From Cannabis sativa (Eukaryota > Streptophyta > Magnoliopsida > Rosales > Cannabaceae): 64,000 nt of DNA. Below are positions 23,161 to 32,009 of this stretch, piece by piece. The stretch is taken from positions 46,138,406-46,202,405 of the forward strand of contig NC_083603.1 in assembly GCF_029168945.1 (NCBI RefSeq), given 5' to 3'. A program made the translations under genes and the position numbers. Numbering within the stretch: position 1 is the stretch's first letter; each line of letters begins with the position of its first letter. Below the pieces are notes generated by a model. That model had not been told where the DNA came from. It worked only from the letters and a program-made list of their open reading frames with translations, and searched no databases.

Positions 23161-23169
23161 AATTTTTTA
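23161..23169. repeat. MULE target-site duplication, left
   Basis: AATTTTTTA, identical to 32001-32009. Nine bp is the length made by Mutator-like transposases. Confidence 0.93.
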
Positions 23170-23300
23170 GGGAAATTTCATTAATTGACCCTAATAATAC
23201 AACTTATATCAAAAATTGGACCCTTTTATTTTTTGTACAAATTGATACCACTAATTCAAAAAGATTCCTAAAATACCCCTAAAATTAAATTTCACTCATT
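23170..23300 (+). repeat. MULE left terminal inverted repeat
   Basis: The first 20 bp are GGGAAATTTCATTAATTGAC. The reverse complement of the right end is GGGAAATTTCAATTTTTGAC. Both are followed by CCTAATAATACAA and, after a gap, TTTGTACAAATT. Similarity then fades into CT-rich sequence. Confidence 0.9.
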
Positions 23301-23354
23301 CTCTCTGACTTTCCCTCTCTCTCACTTTCCCTCTCTCGCTCTCTCTCTCTGACT

Positions 23355-23657
23355 TTCCCTCTTCACAAACCAGAAACGTCGACCTCGACCCATCTCCACC
23401 ACGAACCAGGAACCCGTAAACCCCAAACCCCCAAACCAGCAAACCCATCTCCGTCGACCATCTCCACCACGAACCCAACAAACGAGGCGAACCCAACCCA
23501 CGAGCAGGACCCGTCTCTCTTTCTCTGCCTATTGCTCTCGACATTGGAACCCAACCCACCCACACCCACGGCCGACATTGGAACCCAACCAATTTTCAGA
23601 GGTCGTAGCCACGAAAACCAGAACAGAGGTCGTCCCCAAAACCACGAACAGTCAAAG
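23355..23657 (+). other. Non-coding first exon of the MULE Ulp1 gene
   Basis: A CT-rich then CCAACC-rich leader with no ATG anywhere between about 23285 and 23657. It ends at a strong splice donor (CAAAG/GTAAGT, intron from 23658). The matching acceptor TTTTTTCAG lies immediately before the ATG at 24409. The leader contains two short internal duplications (CGACATTGGAACCCAACC and CATCTCCACCACGAACC). The start of transcription is not visible. Confidence 0.6.
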
Positions 23658-23809
23658 GTAAGTTTTTTTCTTATTAAAAAATAGAATTTTCATAGAATTG
23701 GATGGGAATTTGTGTATGTTATTCTGATTAGATTGTTTTAGGATGTGTATACGAACTTGTGCTTGTTTTTCTGCATGTTAATCAGTAGTGTTTTATTGTT
23801 CAAACAAGT

Positions 23810-24356
23810 TGTCGATGACTTGTCGATAGGTTATCGATATAATGTCGACAAGATTGAAAGTGTTTGAGTCTGTGTTGTTAGTGTATGTCGATAGGATATC
23901 ATTGGTATGTCGATAGGATGTCGACCTTATTTGGAATAAAAGTGGAGGTCTATAATATCGATAGGATATCTACCTTATGTCGATATCTTGTCGACTATTG
24001 TTATGTAGTTGATATATGTTAGTGTGTGTCGATAGGATATCATTGGTATGTCGATAGGATGTCGACCTTATTTGGAATAAAAGTGGAGGTCTATAATATC
24101 GATAGGATATCTACCTTATGTCGATATCTTGTCGACTATTGTTATGTAGTTGATATATGTTTGATAATGTCGACAACATGTCGACAGGATGTCGACAGAT
24201 TGTCGATATGTTGTCCACAATGTTATTTTTTACTGTTTCTGTGATAATGTCGACAACATGTCGACAGTATGTCGACTGTTTGTCGACCTAATTTTTTGTT
24301 TACTTACTGTTTGATAATGTCTACAGAATATCGACATGATGTCGATGTTATGTCGA
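23810..24356 (+). repeat. Left array: eight quartets of phased TRTCGA sites
   Basis: TGTCGA/TATCGA sites start at 23810, 23821, 23832, 23843; then in groups of four beginning at 23886, 23956, 24027, 24097, 24168, 24248 and 24318. Spacing inside every group is exactly 11 bp, and groups start 70-80 bp apart. A few sites are degenerate (for example TATCAT at 23897, TGTCTA at 24318), and the sixth group has a fifth partial site at 24212. Groups 2-3 and 4-5 are a direct 141-bp duplication (copies from about 23878 and 24019). The whole array sits in the 5' intron of the Ulp1 gene. Confidence 0.93.
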
Positions 24357-24408
24357 CTATTTTTTAATTTTTGTGGCAGTTATATTGATTTGTTTTTTGT
24401 TTTTTCAG

Positions 24409-27323
24409 ATGGCTCCCAGACTCATTATTCCAGCACCCGAGCATTTCACTGGCCGCGTCACATATAGGGGCACTGGAATTTTTGCAAAAATTAAAGCTCG
24501 GTTTGAGGAGTTCAACCTTAACAACACGGCGAAGGAAAGCCGTTTCGGGAGCTTCTGGAATGCCGTACCACTGACATTCTCCTCGGTGTTATTTCACCAG
24601 CTGATGCTCCACAAAATGAAAGTGGATGCTCAGGAGGAGTTGAGGATGAGGTTTTATGTTGGTCGGAAGGAGGTCCGATTCGGGGTGCTGGAGTTTGCAC
24701 TCATTACGGGTTTGGACTTCTCCTCGGGGCCAACAGAAGAGGAGAAGGCTGCGCAGGTCGCGCGCTCGGGGTCAGACCGATTGATCAACAAATATTTCAA
24801 CCGGTCTGATAGTGTGAAGACAGAAGCACTCCAACTTCAGTTCACAAACTGCCAGAACCCGGAAGACTTGTACAAGCTCGGCTTGTGCTTGTTTGTGGAG
24901 TCAGTGCTTCTGGGCCGCGAGGCCAACGCGCTGATCACGCCTCACATACTTAGATATGTGGAAGACCTCGAGTTCTTCTTCCGGATTCCTTGGGGGAAGC
25001 ACTCATTCGCCGGTACTCATGCACTCGCTTCGGAAAGACATGTTGAAACGAGAAGGCCAACTACGAGAAGAAGCCGAGTTCGGATGTTCGGCACGAGTGC
25101 AAATACACGGCATATGGCTTCGCACTGCGGTCCAATATTGGGCGTACGAGGCCATTTTGGAGGTTGGCAAGAGGTATGGCACGAACCACGGGATTCGTTT
25201 CCCCGGTGATGCTTAGTGGACGAGCAAAGGCGATATTGGGAAGAAAGACGTCGGCGCATTATTTTCTAGACGGGTATGATTTTCACTTATGTTCTGAATA
25301 ATTATTTAACATAAATGCTTGTAATAAATGCTAAATGGTTTTATTTTGATATTTTTTAAACCATAAACAGAATCTGGAAGTGGTGAAGGGGCTACTTCCA
25401 CGGACAGAGGAGGAGGCATTTGTGAGGACAATTTCTTACGATAGTGTGGAGAACCTGGTTGATGATGTTGTCGATGACACAGAGGCTGAGGCAGGTAGTC
25501 AGGTACCAGAGACTCAGGTCCCAGACACTCAGGAAAGAGACACTCAGGTACCAATTTTTGGAACTTTTTTTTATGTCTTCATTTTTTATTATTTTTGTTT
25601 TGTGATATTTGTTACATTGTGGAATTATCGTATGCTTACCGTATTTTTTTGATATATATTTTTTCAGGCCACTAGTTCAGAACCTCAGCCCAGTGCACTA
25701 TCTTCATCAGGCGTTCGGGGTGCCGAGTACACTGATTTAGTGGCTCGGTTGGATAGGATCGAGGCTGACACTCAGGGTCTGTATGCTGCTCATGTCGAGC
25801 TGAAGAAGGCATACGAGACCAGCCATGTAGAGCTGAAGGGTTGTCGAACGTAATTATGGAGCGGCTCGGACACATATTGGCCATGTTGAATCGTCCGCCA
25901 ACGACGGCTTCGGCACGGAGGCCCCGGCGAGATCCATCTACCCCACCACCACCGCTTCACCCCCAGTAGAAGAGGATGAGGTCTTCCCCGACGATTACGA
26001 TCCTTATGAGGGAGCTCCAGCGACTCCGATCGAGGCACAACCTCTTATCCATGTACATGACACCGAGTCGCAGGGTGAGATTCTGTCCATAGAGGCACAA
26101 CCTGCAGTGGTTAAGAGTCGGAAGAGGAAGAGAAAGCCTCCTGTATGGTTCGGTGACTATACGGAGATGAAGAGGAGACATAGGCCATCTTCGAATTTTG
26201 ATCCCCTGGAGCCACCGGATGAGAAATTGTTAACCACTTTCCGAAAGTGGTGTGTTGGACTCATTCCGAACCACCGACTTCGGGATTTGAGAAGTGGTGA
26301 TTACGGTCCAGGATTCTTTTGGATAATGCTCACACCAAAGGAATGGCTTACAGATGACGTAAGTAAAGTATTTTATAATATTACTTCACTTTTCAACTTT
26401 ATGTACAATGCAATTAATATATTTTTTTGTGTAACTGACATTTCCGTTTATATGCAGCATATAGATGCAGCAATGCATATGCTGAGGAGGCGACGCACCG
26501 ACTATCCACTGACATTTCCTCAGAAGGGTATCATTCTCTCCACATTCGTGACCGCCATGATCAGCAGTGCATGGACGAGCCACAAGGGTCCGAGGAAAAA
26601 CTTTAAATGGGAGGATTATATCCTGGACTACTGCACAGGGGCTCATAAGGTATTGTTTTAGTAAGATTTTAAATGTCAATTGTTTGGGAAGATTATTATG
26701 GTTTGTTAATTGTTTCGTTGTTCTCTGTAATTACAGTCCCAAGTCTTTGAGAGATGGAGGGGTAACGAGTTTATTTACTTCGTTCTGAACCTTCCCACGG
26801 CAAGGCACTGGGTCACAGTTGAAGTCGACATAGAGCTGTGGAAAATTAATGTCTACGACTGTGATTCCAGCGTCTGTCATTGGACCGCCATGGAACCCAT
26901 CATGAAGGTTTGGGCGAACCGCCGCCCTCGCTAATCCTTGCAACCGGGAATTTCCACATAACAACCGCATCATGGCGTTAGCTAACGGTGACATCACGGT
27001 GCTTCCAAAAATGCACGCGACTCGAGCCACTCACGACTTAGTTCCGAAGTCAGCAACCAGGTACATAGCGATATAAAAGTACTATAGTATTAAAATATGT
27101 TTTACGTTAGACTGACTTTACATTTTATTTTGCATTTAGTGGTGATTGTGGCGTGTATTGCATTGAGTATGTGGAGCATCTCATGATGCAAATATGGATT
27201 GACCGATGTGACGCCGTACGGATAGCCATGTTTCGTCAACGGTGGTGTGTCGATTTATTTTACCAAAATGCTCGAGTGATTATATGTGTAATTATTGGGA
27301 CATTGTATATTTTGTGTAATTAA
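24409..27323 (+). pseudogene. DUF1985 - Ulp1-like cysteine protease (C48) gene of the MULE
   Basis: The start ATG lies directly after the leader-intron acceptor (TTTTTTCAG/ATGGCT). Exon 24409 to about 25274 encodes a DUF1985 domain (RFGSFW; VLFHQLMLHK; EVRFGVLEFALITGLDF; YKLGLCLFVESVLLGRE). Further exons: 25372-25545 (acidic, Q/T/P repeats), 25669-26359 (coiled-coil-like then basic KSRKRKRK), 26458-26649, 26737 to about 27060, and 27140-27323. The Ulp1 triad is recognisable: RHWV (His), VYDCDS (Asp) and SGDCGVY (Cys). Frameshifts interrupt the frame near 25018, 25204, 25848, 26928 and 26952, mostly in short homopolymers. Near the Cys there is Lys (PKSATSGDCG) where related proteins often have the oxyanion-hole Gln. 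A SUMO/ubiquitin-like protease role is inferred from the family. Confidence 0.85.
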
Positions 27324-30195
27324 CATTACAGTTATGTATATATAGATTTTCTTTTCGTTCAAATTTTGATAATTATACGTGGTTTCAAATATAAAATATC
27401 AACATTATTCAACAAAAATAACTATTAAACCTAAAAATAATTAAAATATTTGAAAAATATTCAACCTCAACAAAAATAAGTATGACAAAATATGCATCAT
27501 TACAATATATCAAATTTCCCAACGAATACGTACAAGACGCCTCAGATGCGGGCTTTGCATGTTGCTCTGTTGTGGCTCGAATCGCCACGGCGGCTGCGGT
27601 TCGTGGTACGAGAACCTTTTTTATCACCGGACGGGAAACGGTTCTCCCGTCTTCTTCCGCCGTTGCTTTTTCTTGGACGACCTACGGGCTTCTTTTCCAC
27701 AGTACCCCAACTTTCATATTCTTGATGTGTTCTGGGAGAACCCAATCATCCTCGTCACCAGCGAGATTGATGGTATCATCGTAAATCTTCCTCCACGTTT
27801 CTTTTGAATAATAAGGTGAGCAAAGCGTGTACACACTTGTGTTCGTTTTCAATGTCGCGACACATGCATGAAGGCAAGGGAGTTTCAATAACGTGAACAC
27901 GCCGCAGGTGCATGTTCTTTCAACTAGATTCACATCACCACCTCTTTCACCGTTAGGTCCCCTACCAACGTTATACAAATTGGCTCCATTTCGTTGGACG
28001 CGCCTGTACCTTGCATTTTCATGAATTTTTGCCAAGTTTTTTTCGAAGAGCGTGGCCAAAGGGGTGGCACATTTGTCAGCATTTTCGAGGCGATCAGCGA
28101 ACCACGATTGGAGTGTGAACCCTCATAAATTCAACCAAAGTAGTTATTGGATATTTCCCGAACTCTTCAGTGACACTATTGAAGCTTTCAGCAGCGTTGC
28201 TCGTCATGATGTTGTATCTATCGCCCAAACAATAAGGGTGAGCCCACTTCTCAAACCCTATACTCTCCACATATGCAGCAATGGCCGGATTCATCTTTCT
28301 AAGCTTCTCGAACTCTCTATCGCATTCAGTCTTCGACCATGCGTAAGCAACATTATATATTTGGTTGTGAAAAGCATCAGTCTTGAATTTGGCATTCACG
28401 TTCATAACAATGTGGTGATAGCATGCACAGTGGACTGCTTCGGGAAAAACGAGTTCAACAGCATGATCAATGCTTTGATGCCTATCTGACACAAACACTA
28501 AGTTCTCAACCACGCCAATTGCTACCCTCAACTTCGTAAGAAATACGTCCAGAGTCGTTATTCTCACTGTCAACGATACCATAAGCAACCGGCAACAATT
28601 GGTTGTTCGCATCGTATGCCACAGCAACTAACATTATACCACCGTACTTCGTCTTCAAGAAGGTGCCATCGATACTCAAAACAGGACGACAAAAAGAAAA
28701 GCCCCTTCTACATGCACCGAGTGATATAAAACAGTACTTGAACCGCTCATCCTCTCAGTACAAGTCAGTAATGGTCCCTGGATTCTTCTGTTCCGACATG
28801 TACAAGTACCCAGGAAGCTTCATGTATGAAAACTCAGGCGTACCCCTAGCATACGTAAGTCCCATCTCCCTGCACCTCCACGCCTTCACATAACTCATAC
28901 TGATACCGTAGTTGTCAAACATGTCCCTCTGTATGTCTTTAGCCTTGTACTTAGTTCCGTCTTGGGTGTACTTCCCCTTAATAAGGTGGCCAACTACCCA
29001 TGGTGCTGCTTGACGGTGATCTGAACGTCTCGCATTCAAGTTACATGTGTGTTCATTGTGAAATACAGTGACCTCAAAGTTGTCAGAATGCATCTTCTTC
29101 CTCCCCCTCAATCTCCATTTACAATCTGGAGCCTTGCATGTAACGTACAACACATCAGGGGATGACTTCTTCACCATCCACTCGAAATTGTTATTAAGGG
29201 CAAACCTACCCACAACTTGTCTCAGTTCTTCCTTGTTTTCATAAAAATTACCAAGCTCTATCACCCCTGCTTCCTTACTTTGTAAACAAGTAGTTAGCTC
29301 ATGATTTTCCATTATATCTTCCTTTGTCCACATGGGAGCTTTGAACTTGGTACAAACTTCGAAAGAGGAGAACGTTGAGAACGTTGCATGACGAGCATGT
29401 TCTTCAGTTCTGCCTGGTCGACTACTGCTAGTTCCAGGTGTAGTGCGATTTTCACTACGAGGTTGTCGTTCTCGCTGTGTACCTTGGTTACTCGGTACAC
29501 ACTCTAACCTCAACAATGGTCCCGCTACGGGTTCATCGACTGCTAAATCATGCTCATCGTCCATATTCAAATCTACAATAGGATCATTATTGTAGAAGGG
29601 TGTATCGAACTCTTCAAACTGATGAAATCCTGTCGCTTCTTGTTCTTGCCCTACATTGGTCGGAACATCAAAATTGGTCGAAACCTCTAAATTGGCCGGA
29701 ACCTCCTCATTCACACCAATCCCAACATTTGTTTCGGGAACGCAAGACCCTACCACACTCCGAGGGAGAGGATTCGTAGGCGGCGTAGGCTCCGAATTCC
29801 CAACTTTTCTCACCTTGGTCACGAATAATGGCATAAACTCTGTATTTGACATTGTTGCCCTCATCTCTAAAAACGTTCTCAGTTGGCGTTCTCTCTTAAT
29901 AACCTCTGGCGCAACCATTTTTCCCTTCATGTACAAGGAACAAATCTCCAACTTTAAATCATACGCTACCGGATCAACTTCCAACTCTTCATATAAAATT
30001 TGTCGCAGTTCTTGTAGGGTTGTCTCGGTTGTAACTGTCAACGTCAAGCTGCTATTTGCTTTGTAGATCCAATTATAATTCTCACATAACCAAACACCAT
30101 CGTACGATACAACAAGGAACACTTTGTCTCCTGCAATTGCAAACCAAAAAAACAAGGTGAGTAAAGGAAAAAACACCAAAAAAAAAAAATAAAAA

Positions 30196-30571
30196 TCGAC
30201 ATCCCATCGATATCAATAGACATAATGTCGAGAAGCACAACATCAGAAATTAGGGCACTGAATGTCGACATTGTGTCGACATATTATCGACATACAATCG
30301 ACAACAACAACAACCATGCTCGTCATCGACATAATATCGACATACCATCGACATTCAATCGACAATTAAAAACGGTTGCACATTTAATGTTAATAAATTT
30401 TACCTACGTTCCCAACAACCCTTCCCAACTGAAACGTTGCATGTCAGACACGTGTCCTATCGACAACATATCGACATGAAGTCGACATGTCGTCGACAAA
30501 TGTGTTAGCAGTGACACTTAATTGGCATGTTGTCGACATGATGTCGACACAGTATCGACATTCAGTCGACA
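30196..30571 (-). repeat. Right inner array: five quartets of phased TCGAYA sites
   Basis: On the plus strand TCGACA/TCGATA starts at 30196, 30207, 30217 (degenerate), 30228; then 30265, 30276, 30287, 30298; 30326, 30337, 30348, 30359; 30460, 30471, 30482, 30493; and 30533, 30544, 30555, 30566. This is the reverse complement of the left-array motif TRTCGA. Groups start about 61-73 bp apart, with one double gap between the third and fourth. It lies in the transposase intron. Confidence 0.92.
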
Positions 30572-30657
30572 AATACGCCATTTCATGCGTTTTCCCTGTA
30601 CAGTTACGCATTTAATGACCATTAAATTTTCATACATTCCCAACATTTTTACTGCTC

Positions 30658-30664
30658 TATAAAA
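30658..30664 (+). promoter_or_regulatory. TATA box of the nested small gene
   Basis: TATAAAA, preceded by GC-poor sequence, lies 94 bp upstream of the ATG at 30752. It is a good plant TATA match at a plausible distance (transcription start would be near 30690). Confidence 0.6.
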
Positions 30665-30751
30665 GCAAAGGGAAATCTTATTCATAAGTGCTCTTGTATT
30701 CTACCTATCTCTTACTCTTAAAAATTTCTCTTATTCTCTTAAGTTTGAAAT

Positions 30752-31077
30752 ATGGCCCCAAGAAAGAACGGCAAATTCCCCATCCTAACTCCGAAGAGTC
30801 AAGGGAGCCTGATGTTGGCATAGTTACTCCTGCAATGCAGAAAGTTTTGGACGCCGCTCGAGCTTTCGAAAGAGAACGAAATGGTAACGAGTTCAGGTTC
30901 ATGCAACTTGAAAGAGAATTTTGCAAAACTGGTGTATGGCCGGCTCCACCACCTGGGTTCCCCGAAGGATGCCGTCGTTGCAAACTGGGCATCTTCAACG
31001 GTAAACCGGTGAAGCCTGGAACATTATGCAAGTATTGCAAGGCTCACCCACAAGCCAAAGAATTTAAAAAAAAATAA
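30752..31077 (+). CDS. Small CX2C...CX2C (zinc-ribbon-like) protein gene nested in the MULE
   Basis: The ATG at 30752 starts MAPRK. After about five codons the reading must shift by one base to enter the long open frame ending at 31077 (about 108 residues in all). The body is charged and helical (VLDAARAFERERNGNEFRFM), then has PAPPPGFPEGC and a CX2C-X15-CX2C motif (CRRC ... CKYC) before a Lys-rich end. This would bind zinc; the family is not recognised. It has its own TATA box, lies between two TRTCGA arrays, and is transcribed opposite to the transposase, inside whose intron it sits. By position it could be the accessory gene of the element (MURB/VANC-like role is pure inference). The early shift may be a real lesion, an assembly error, or a wrong start. 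Confidence 0.55.
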
Positions 31078-31244
31078 TTTCTTATGTTATGGTTTGTGGT
31101 GAGTTTTATTTAATGTTTGTTTTTTTTTTATGAATTTTATTTTCTGTTTTTTTTTTATGTTTTTTTATGTTATTTTTAATGAACTTTATTTTCTGTTAAT
31201 GTTATGTTATGTTTATGTTTTATCCACGGTATTTTTCCATTGCA

Positions 31245-31491
31245 TCGATATTTTGTCGACATCATGTCGACAAAATATCGACAACTTCTTAAAAAAACAA
31301 AAATGCTTGTTGTCGATATTCTGTCGACAAACATGTCGACAAAATGTCGACAAATAGTTAATACCATGTTGGTTGCGTGATGTCGACAACATGTCGACAT
31401 AATGTCGACATAACGTCGATAATGGTCGTCACTGACCTTTCCTTTGTAATCATCGACAAACCATCGACATATCATCGACATATCATCGATA
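31245..31491 (-). repeat. Right outer array: four quartets of phased TCGAYA sites
   Basis: Site starts: 31245, 31256, 31267, 31278; 31313, 31324, 31336, 31347; 31383, 31394, 31405, 31416; 31453, 31464, 31475, 31486. Spacing is 11 bp throughout except one 12-bp step. The groups start 68, 70 and 70 bp apart. It ends 509 bp from the right terminus (the left array begins 640 bp from the left terminus). Confidence 0.93.
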
Positions 31492-31869
31492 ACACTGGAA
31501 AACCCAGAAATCGACTGAAAACCAGATCTGCCAGATCTCAACAATTTCAGACCAAAAAACAGCAGTTCCAACAATAAACACATGTATAACAATTTTAAAT
31601 TACATAAAGTCAAACAAAATGCTTAAAATACAACTTACCCATTATAATGGTGTAAGATTCTTGAGTGATGTTGTATTGTGCTTCGGTTTTCCACCAACAC
31701 CCACCGAGAAAACAACCATTCAACAGCAAATAAAGAGAGTGGGACGGATAGAGGGAAATTTTTTCATAAATTTTTCAATTTTTTCCTAGAGAGAGAGAGT
31801 GGTGCACGAGAGAGAGGGAAGAGGGAAGAGAGAGAGAGAGAAATACCACTTTCAGATTTTAGCTTTTTT

Positions 31870-32000
31870 TTTTTTTTTTTTAAAAAAAAAAGGGTAAAAT
31901 GGGAAGTTCATGTAATTAATGGACTAAATTTGTACAAATTAAGGAAGGGTATAAATTTTGAAATGGCTTGTATTATTAGGGTCAAAAATTGAAATTTCCC
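31870..32000 (-). repeat. MULE right terminal inverted repeat
   Basis: The reverse complement starts GGGAAATTTCA and keeps GACCCTAATAATACAA and TTTGTACAAATT in the same order as the left end. A T-tract/A-tract junction at about 31867-31893 and GA-rich sequence (31789-31842) lie just inside. Confidence 0.9.
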
Positions 32001-32009
32001 AATTTTTTA
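32001..32009. repeat. MULE target-site duplication, right
   Basis: AATTTTTTA, identical to 23161-23169. Confidence 0.93.

Follow-up and report, generated by a model that had tools for sequence, protein, structure and literature searches.

Two arrays of short, regularly spaced sites in a Mutator-like element (MULE) of Cannabis sativa are very probably the targets of the element's own anti-silencing protein of the VANC/KIU type (DUF1985 plus Ulp1), with a motif that co-evolved with this protein and a four-site layout that is fixed. The element occupies positions 23170-32000 of the window, the 64,000-nucleotide stretch analysed here (NCBI RefSeq assembly GCF_029168945.1, contig NC_083603.1, positions 46,138,406 to 46,202,405 of the forward strand), and is bounded by a 9-bp target site duplication (AATTTTTTA), as expected of a VANDAL/VANC system, with identical copies at 23161..23169 and 32001..32009. 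The arrays are read as VANC/KIU targets because the element matches VANDAL21 and the KIU-carrying elements in its components and in their placement. The first-pass annotation of the window had envisaged a protein-binding platform of the VANDAL/VANC kind, and this is well supported by the VANC21-like protein, the arrays in predicted introns and the conservation of the sites.

As described in that annotation, the element contains 17 clusters, eight in the left arm and nine in the right, giving 68 phased positions. The left array (23810..24356, + strand) comprises eight clusters of four WTRTCGAY sites at 11-bp steps, starting at 23810, 23886, 23956, 24027, 24097, 24168, 24248 and 24318, while the nine right clusters cover 30196-31491, are read on the - strand and form an inner block of five clusters of four (30196..30571) and an outer block of four such clusters (31245..31491). 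Exact TRTCGA is found at 61 of the 68 positions and intact TCGA at 62, with eleven of the 17 clusters perfect and the other six having one or two altered positions, seven altogether. Within clusters 49 of the 51 steps are 11 bp, the remaining two being one of 10 bp (30207 to 30217) and one of 12 bp (31324 to 31336). The placement of all four sites on the same side of the DNA holds only approximately, as each step is about one turn but drifts by ~17 degrees (arithmetic, at 10.5 bp/turn). The phased pattern does not continue past four positions, as the in-phase scores (of 8) one step outside the clusters resemble the background (mostly 3-5, sixes 5%), being 3-5 except for two sixes and one seven, the last reflecting a decayed fifth site, TTGTCCAC, that trails left cluster 6. 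Left clusters 4-5 are copies of clusters 2-3 through a 141-bp tandem duplication (23876..24161, + strand, 99%), leaving 15 independent clusters rather than 17.

The TRTCGA core was borne out but is incomplete as a description of the motif, to which a preceding W and a following Y belong. The consensus is WTRTCGAY plus three free bases, with counts over the 68 positions of 66 for W at -1, 68 for T, 67 for R, 68 for T, 68 for C, 62 for G, 66 for A and 68 for Y. Site direction is real despite the palindromic TCGA core, since T occurs at site position 0 in 68/68 cases, read on + in the left arm and on - in the right, but its mirror image, A at position 7, in just 39/68, which bears out the inversion of the motif between the arms. 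The CpG observed/expected ratio is 1.7-2.3 in the arrays, 0.9 in the two gene regions and 0.53-0.58 in the flanks; all 27 CpGs of 23810-24356 fall inside sites and none of the 68 positions reads TTGA. This persistence of CpG was dropped as proof of hypomethylation, since youth or selection would explain it equally and the core C has changed four times in three other copies, always by transition.

A chance origin was rejected on the basis of both simulation and genome-wide step counts. The element contains 107 TRTCGA sites, forming 56 same-strand pairs with 11-bp spacing, whereas 500 first-order Markov sequences average 9.5 sites and 0 pairs (maximum 20 and 0). Across the Cannabis genome 8,300 three-site runs at 11-bp steps were counted (4192 forward and 4108 reverse, partly overlapping since a near-palindromic site can be read on either strand), compared with 1 forward and 0 reverse for the reversed pattern and 0 and 3 for 10-bp steps. 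Among the control contigs, those of prokaryotic genomes yielded 19 stretches with the strict four-site pattern, 15 of which are plain tandem repeats because they have only one or two distinct spacers, the other four having three, and the search of viral contigs for the array pattern gave nothing.

The arrays recur throughout the family. P0029, a close relative of the window DUF1985 protein that was used as the query for copies, has at least 132 scored matches at 81-100% identity among 1817 first-look candidates. For 20 of these matches (L067-L086), ~620 upstream bases were taken, and arrays were present in every copy, each with 5-9 clusters, so that the 4 x 11-bp pattern is shared by other family members. 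The 148 clusters comprise 116 of four sites, 16 of three, 14 of two and two of five, with the cluster finder requiring TC in weak sites, so that decayed TTGA sites are uncounted, and with stretch ends possibly cutting some clusters; the 402 steps comprise 396 of 11 bp, four of 10 bp and two of 12 bp. Linkers between full quartets in these copies peak at 19, 27-30 and 38-41 bp, successive peaks being separated by roughly one helical turn. Helical phasing between quartets is not claimed, as the 92 distinct linkers reduce to 18 sequence families in which the 10.5-bp signal has a p value of 0.12.

Comparison between copies supports the earlier observation that spacers vary while sites persist. From nine fetched stretches (L028-L036), L028, L029 and L030 were aligned to the window, leaving out L031 and L034, whose alignments fall outside the arrays, and L032 (right arm 76-81% over at most 414 bases), while L033, L035 and L036 gave no alignment above 150 bases. 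The core T/T/A positions differ by 0.9% between copies, C by 2.6% (four changes, all transitions), G by 4.5% (seven changes, 0 transitions) and R by 13% (18 of 20 changes transitions), with Y at 9%, W at 7.8%, spacers at 18.5% and linkers at 8.8%; the transposase region differs by 1.6% and the VANC-like gene region by 4.5%, introns included. The left arrays show turnover of units, clusters 4, 5 and 7 differing at 10-12 positions in some copies. In the right arrays, excluding cluster R3 (12-bp step, gaps), differences number 4/479 in the core, 20/141 in spacers and 56/715 in linkers (core vs spacer p = 2e-10; core vs linker p = 3e-9; spacer vs linker p = 0.02), and changes stay within class in 16/18 cases at R and Y and 3/8 at W. 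Between the 15 independent quartets of the window itself, positions 7-9 are near saturation, with a mismatch of 0.61-0.74, and the core shows 0-0.12.

The protein encoded beside the left array is homologous to VANC21. Its DUF1985 exon (24409..25209, + strand, with a frame change near 25011) matches Pfam PF09331 at 1.1e-19 and was placed by tblastn with the relatives P0028, a gene model of another Cannabis copy, and P0029. In searches with relatives of the DUF1985 protein, among them P0029, VANC21 is the sole PDB sequence match (3.8e-15) and the sole strong fold match (5.6e-5), its structures 9lnj and 9lnk having been solved together with target DNA. Further along the same gene, a putative Ulp1/C48 protease remnant (PF02902; 26740..27260, + strand) persists as two pieces that match the profile at 0.0018 and 0.0021, each under the curated cut-off, and that are ordered along it.

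Both arrays fall within predicted introns. The predicted first intron of the VANC-like gene (23658..24408, + strand; GTAAGT donor, TTTTTTCAG acceptor) encloses the whole left array, and the P0028 gene model reads QSK-MAPRL across this junction, matching the spliced exons of the window. The predicted first intron of the transposase gene (30131..31638, - strand; ATGG/GTAAGT donor, CAG acceptor) encloses the whole right array together with a small gene, and its spliced product begins MGDKVFLVV where the transposase relatives P0004, P0005 and P0008 begin MDS[NS]VFV. The motif is thus clustered in non-coding parts that include the predicted VANC-like intron and the region upstream of the transposase, and its direction is that of the sense strand of both genes, which explains the inversion between the arms as well as the symmetry of the element does.

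The transposase itself, a MURA-type protein as in VANDAL/VANC systems (27545..30130, - strand; DBD_Tnp_Mut, MULE and SWIM domains, frame interrupted), was considered as the binding partner, with the arrays serving as subterminal sites on which the transposition complex assembles. Subterminal transposase-binding repeats, named as a precedent in the first-pass annotation and exemplified by Ac and En/Spm, are short repeats within a few hundred bp of the ends. The Cannabis arrays likewise lie towards both ends, inverted and both reading inward, and MURA has a DNA-binding domain (DBD_Tnp_Mut) and is inherited along with them. The precedent is nevertheless a poor fit, as the arrays lie farther from the ends (640-1186 bp on the left, 509-1804 bp on the right), in predicted introns and beside a VANC gene, and, the two genes being convergent, a motif that reads inward equally follows their sense strands. 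Less variation between copies is also seen in the MURA region than in the VANC-like gene region, while the array units turn over. A better candidate site is found in the 109-nt terminal inverted repeats (23170..23278, + strand, and 31892..32000, - strand; 73% complementary), which share the identical 18-mer TTGACCCTAATAATACAA at 23185 and 31968. Transposase binding is therefore an unlikely explanation of the arrays. The 18-mer includes the W-box-like TTGACC, and on the strength of domain kinship we take it to be a candidate site for the WRKY/GCM1-like domain of the transposase.

Known VANDAL systems provide the closest parallel. In the accessible parts of the VANDAL/VANC literature (PMC5735166, PMC10398659, PMC6446971, PMC5821449, PMC12312487, PMC8756742), VANC21 of Arabidopsis binds the motif YAGTATTAY at non-coding sites of VANDAL21, with loss of methylation as a consequence; its target motifs are found in introns of VANC and VANB as well as ahead of VANA, and they change by tandem repeat turnover. 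The related family VANDAL6/VANC6 has the motifs AGTTGTCC and AGTTGTAC and a separate specificity. VANDAL terminal inverted repeats are typically degenerate or missing, although some VANDAL-clade members have them. The accessible part of the review PMC13317346 describes VANDALs carrying KIU (Kaonashi), a VANC with Ulp1 that is one of three element genes, and motif-directed hypomethylation. The Cannabis element resembles VANDAL21 in being a MULE with a MURA-type transposase and a homologous DUF1985 protein, and in its short motifs, which cluster within the VANC intron as well as ahead of the transposase gene and undergo tandem turnover, but differs in its WTRTCGAY motif with a CpG core, its clusters of four, its 109-nt terminal repeats (73%) and its putative Ulp1 remnant. 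VANDAL6 parallels the situation between two Cannabis families in its family-specific motif and specificity, although its motif is without CpG and four-site units go unmentioned in the accessible text. KIU is a VANC-type gene with Ulp1, a domain to which the Cannabis matches are weak, and neither the Cannabis motif nor its host is named in what is accessible of the review.

The features that stand out are the CpG core, common to both Cannabis families, and the number four, while VANC motifs are already known to cluster, to differ between families and to turn over in tandem. In addition, helical periodicity (as 'sequence, density, and helical periodicity') has reportedly been described before for Arabidopsis VANC targets. 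The novelty of the array, which the first-pass annotation had thought undescribed, is therefore smaller than supposed, although the literature searched, whose scope took in few subscription papers, held no four-site units, WTRTCGAY motif or Cannabis VANC systems.

A second Cannabis family combines the same layout with another motif. Among 14 further DUF1985 loci taken from different score groups, three (L092-L094) encode a DUF1985 protein 48-49% identical to P0029 and have 0 TRTCGA triplets, but their corresponding intron carries TTN[G/A]CGAYAT (TTNRCGAYAT) sites, grouped in fours at steps of 10-12 bp. Such sites were also found in 13 of 14 additional upstream stretches, L113 being the exception, which were chosen by DUF1985 matches of 94-104 bits and thus selected on score, not protein identity. 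The 17 sister loci contain 77 clusters (57 of four sites, 13 of three and seven of two), and runs of at least four sites number 57 here but 0.005 in Markov sequences, although the 57 quartets are mainly five homologous clusters across many copies and not 57 independent cases. The first-to-last distance of the quartets is 32 bp in 27 cases, 33 bp in six and 34 bp in 24, and this near-constant total with uneven steps points to a physical frame rather than to copying of an 11-bp unit. Measured against L093, divergence is 1.7% for CGA, 36.8% for spacers and 18.8% for linkers (16 sequences, median pairwise identity 91%). In both families (window with L028-L030; L092-L112 and L114) spacers within quartets diverge about twice as fast as linkers between them, which could reflect unit exchange or selection for sequence change.

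Elsewhere, TRTCGA quartets, two of them perfect, are retained in L031, whose protein shares 96% identity with P0032 and 55% with P0029. Thirty distant DUF1985 loci (L037-L066; 27-29% identical to P0029), so alike (~96%) that they amount to a single case, lack TRTCGA triplets over 3.4 kb, the absence concerning these triplets only, with eight of the 30 put through a 6-mer lag scan for other motifs. No array was seen at L088-L091 and L095-L100, which again excludes TRTCGA triplets only, the lag scan being insensitive and having missed the arrays of L092 and L094. As far as sampled, the motif tracks the VANC lineage and the four-site frame is common to both motifs. Upstream of a distant DUF1985 gene (27% identical to P0029 and 31% to P0033), positions 1-700 of L087 contain a ~75-bp tandem repeat, recognised by eye, with pairs of AACGACC 10 bp apart and their inverse, possibly a third target type.

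The sister family also bears on the proposal that the sites bind a host transcription factor and act as intronic enhancers or promoters of both genes, in agreement with their position next to the starts of both genes and their sense orientation in each. One host factor would not explain the arrays, because the motif differs between sister families of one genome while the layout stays, and a VANC homologue is encoded beside them; this proposal is less likely still than binding by the transposase.

Two further proposals are very improbable. The arrays could act as RNA or single-stranded DNA hairpins, as intron structure or a small-RNA source, given that the RNA of each of the 17 quartets is predicted to fold with the outer sites paired to each other and the inner sites likewise (z -1.1 to -7.0), that spacer 1 is complementary to spacer 3 in 21/45 comparisons against 14.3 expected by permutation (p = 0.012), and that the mean fold energy is below that of all 300 spacer permutations. 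Near-palindromic sites, however, pair by construction, the spacer result is one of six uncorrected contrasts and is confined to the right arm (p = 0.013; left 0.38), its p value is 0.08 when G-U pairs are allowed, and the common direction of all sites is not needed for a hairpin; dyad symmetry of the quartets was thus set aside as a weak signal. An ordinary, functionless tandem repeat expanded by slippage would fit the 99% identical duplication, the tandem turnover known for VANC targets and the faster divergence of spacers than of linkers, as unit exchange would give, but was rejected because the core is ~10 to 20 times less divergent than the spacers between copies, a conservation that contradicts a single recent expansion of an 11-bp unit, and because the spacers are near saturation between the independent window quartets with the core nearly invariant, clusters above four are rare (2/148) and the 32-34 bp sister quartets arise from uneven steps.

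Under the favoured VANC/KIU reading, the protein or its oligomer would dock within the first introns of the VANC-like and transposase genes, where the WTRTCGAY sites stand in quartets at intervals of about one helical turn, each quartet presumably being bound by four subunits or two dimers. The docked protein would remove or block silencing marks, probably through demethylation, so that both genes would stay expressed in its own copy and, in trans, in related copies. Between families the motif would drift along with the VANC protein, and the four-site, ~33-bp frame would be retained. Several points weigh against this reading. Transposase and VANC are inherited jointly, so that the change of motif with VANC does not alone exclude the transposase as binder, and the sister contrast is one of a single family with another, copies within a family not being independent. 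The window copy could be a target only in trans because its genes are frame-interrupted. The VANC21 and VANC6 motifs are without CpG, whereas the Cannabis motif has one, and every one of the four core-C changes is a transition, the outcome expected from deamination of methylated CpG, suggesting that at least some copies may be methylated at the sites.

A more specific version, which is tentative and somewhat doubtful, holds that the quartet is the recognition unit of a four-subunit VANC assembly, that binding to the CpG-centred sites may read the very methylation which the system serves to prevent, and that between the sister families the vocabulary switched from TRTCGAY to TTNRCGAYAT with VANC in a fixed frame of 32-34 bp. 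If the VANC/KIU reading is correct, VANC-type target arrays would extend to Cannabis in an unusually rigid layout, and a single genome would hold two sister systems with distinct motifs and VANC proteins but a common architecture. The change in VANC specificity would thereby become testable through protein/array swaps, and the CpG in every intact core would make methylation-sensitive binding testable.

The small gene (30752..31077, + strand), which sits between the two blocks of the right array, encodes a protein of ~107 aa with two CXXC pairs and has a frame change near its start in the window copy; the two large genes change frame as well, so that this copy is defective. Six relatives of this protein were found, five in Cannabis and one in an ENA record; the Pfam search gave no match and structure prediction an unusable model (pLDDT 57). 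It is a possible counterpart of VANB, the third gene of VANDAL systems. The nearest named relatives of the element's proteins are from Cannabis and Humulus, with more distant transposase relatives in Cynara and Amborella. DUF1985 is very abundant in this genome, with 1690 first-look candidates, and all 150 of the 150 scored ones lie above the Pfam cut-off.

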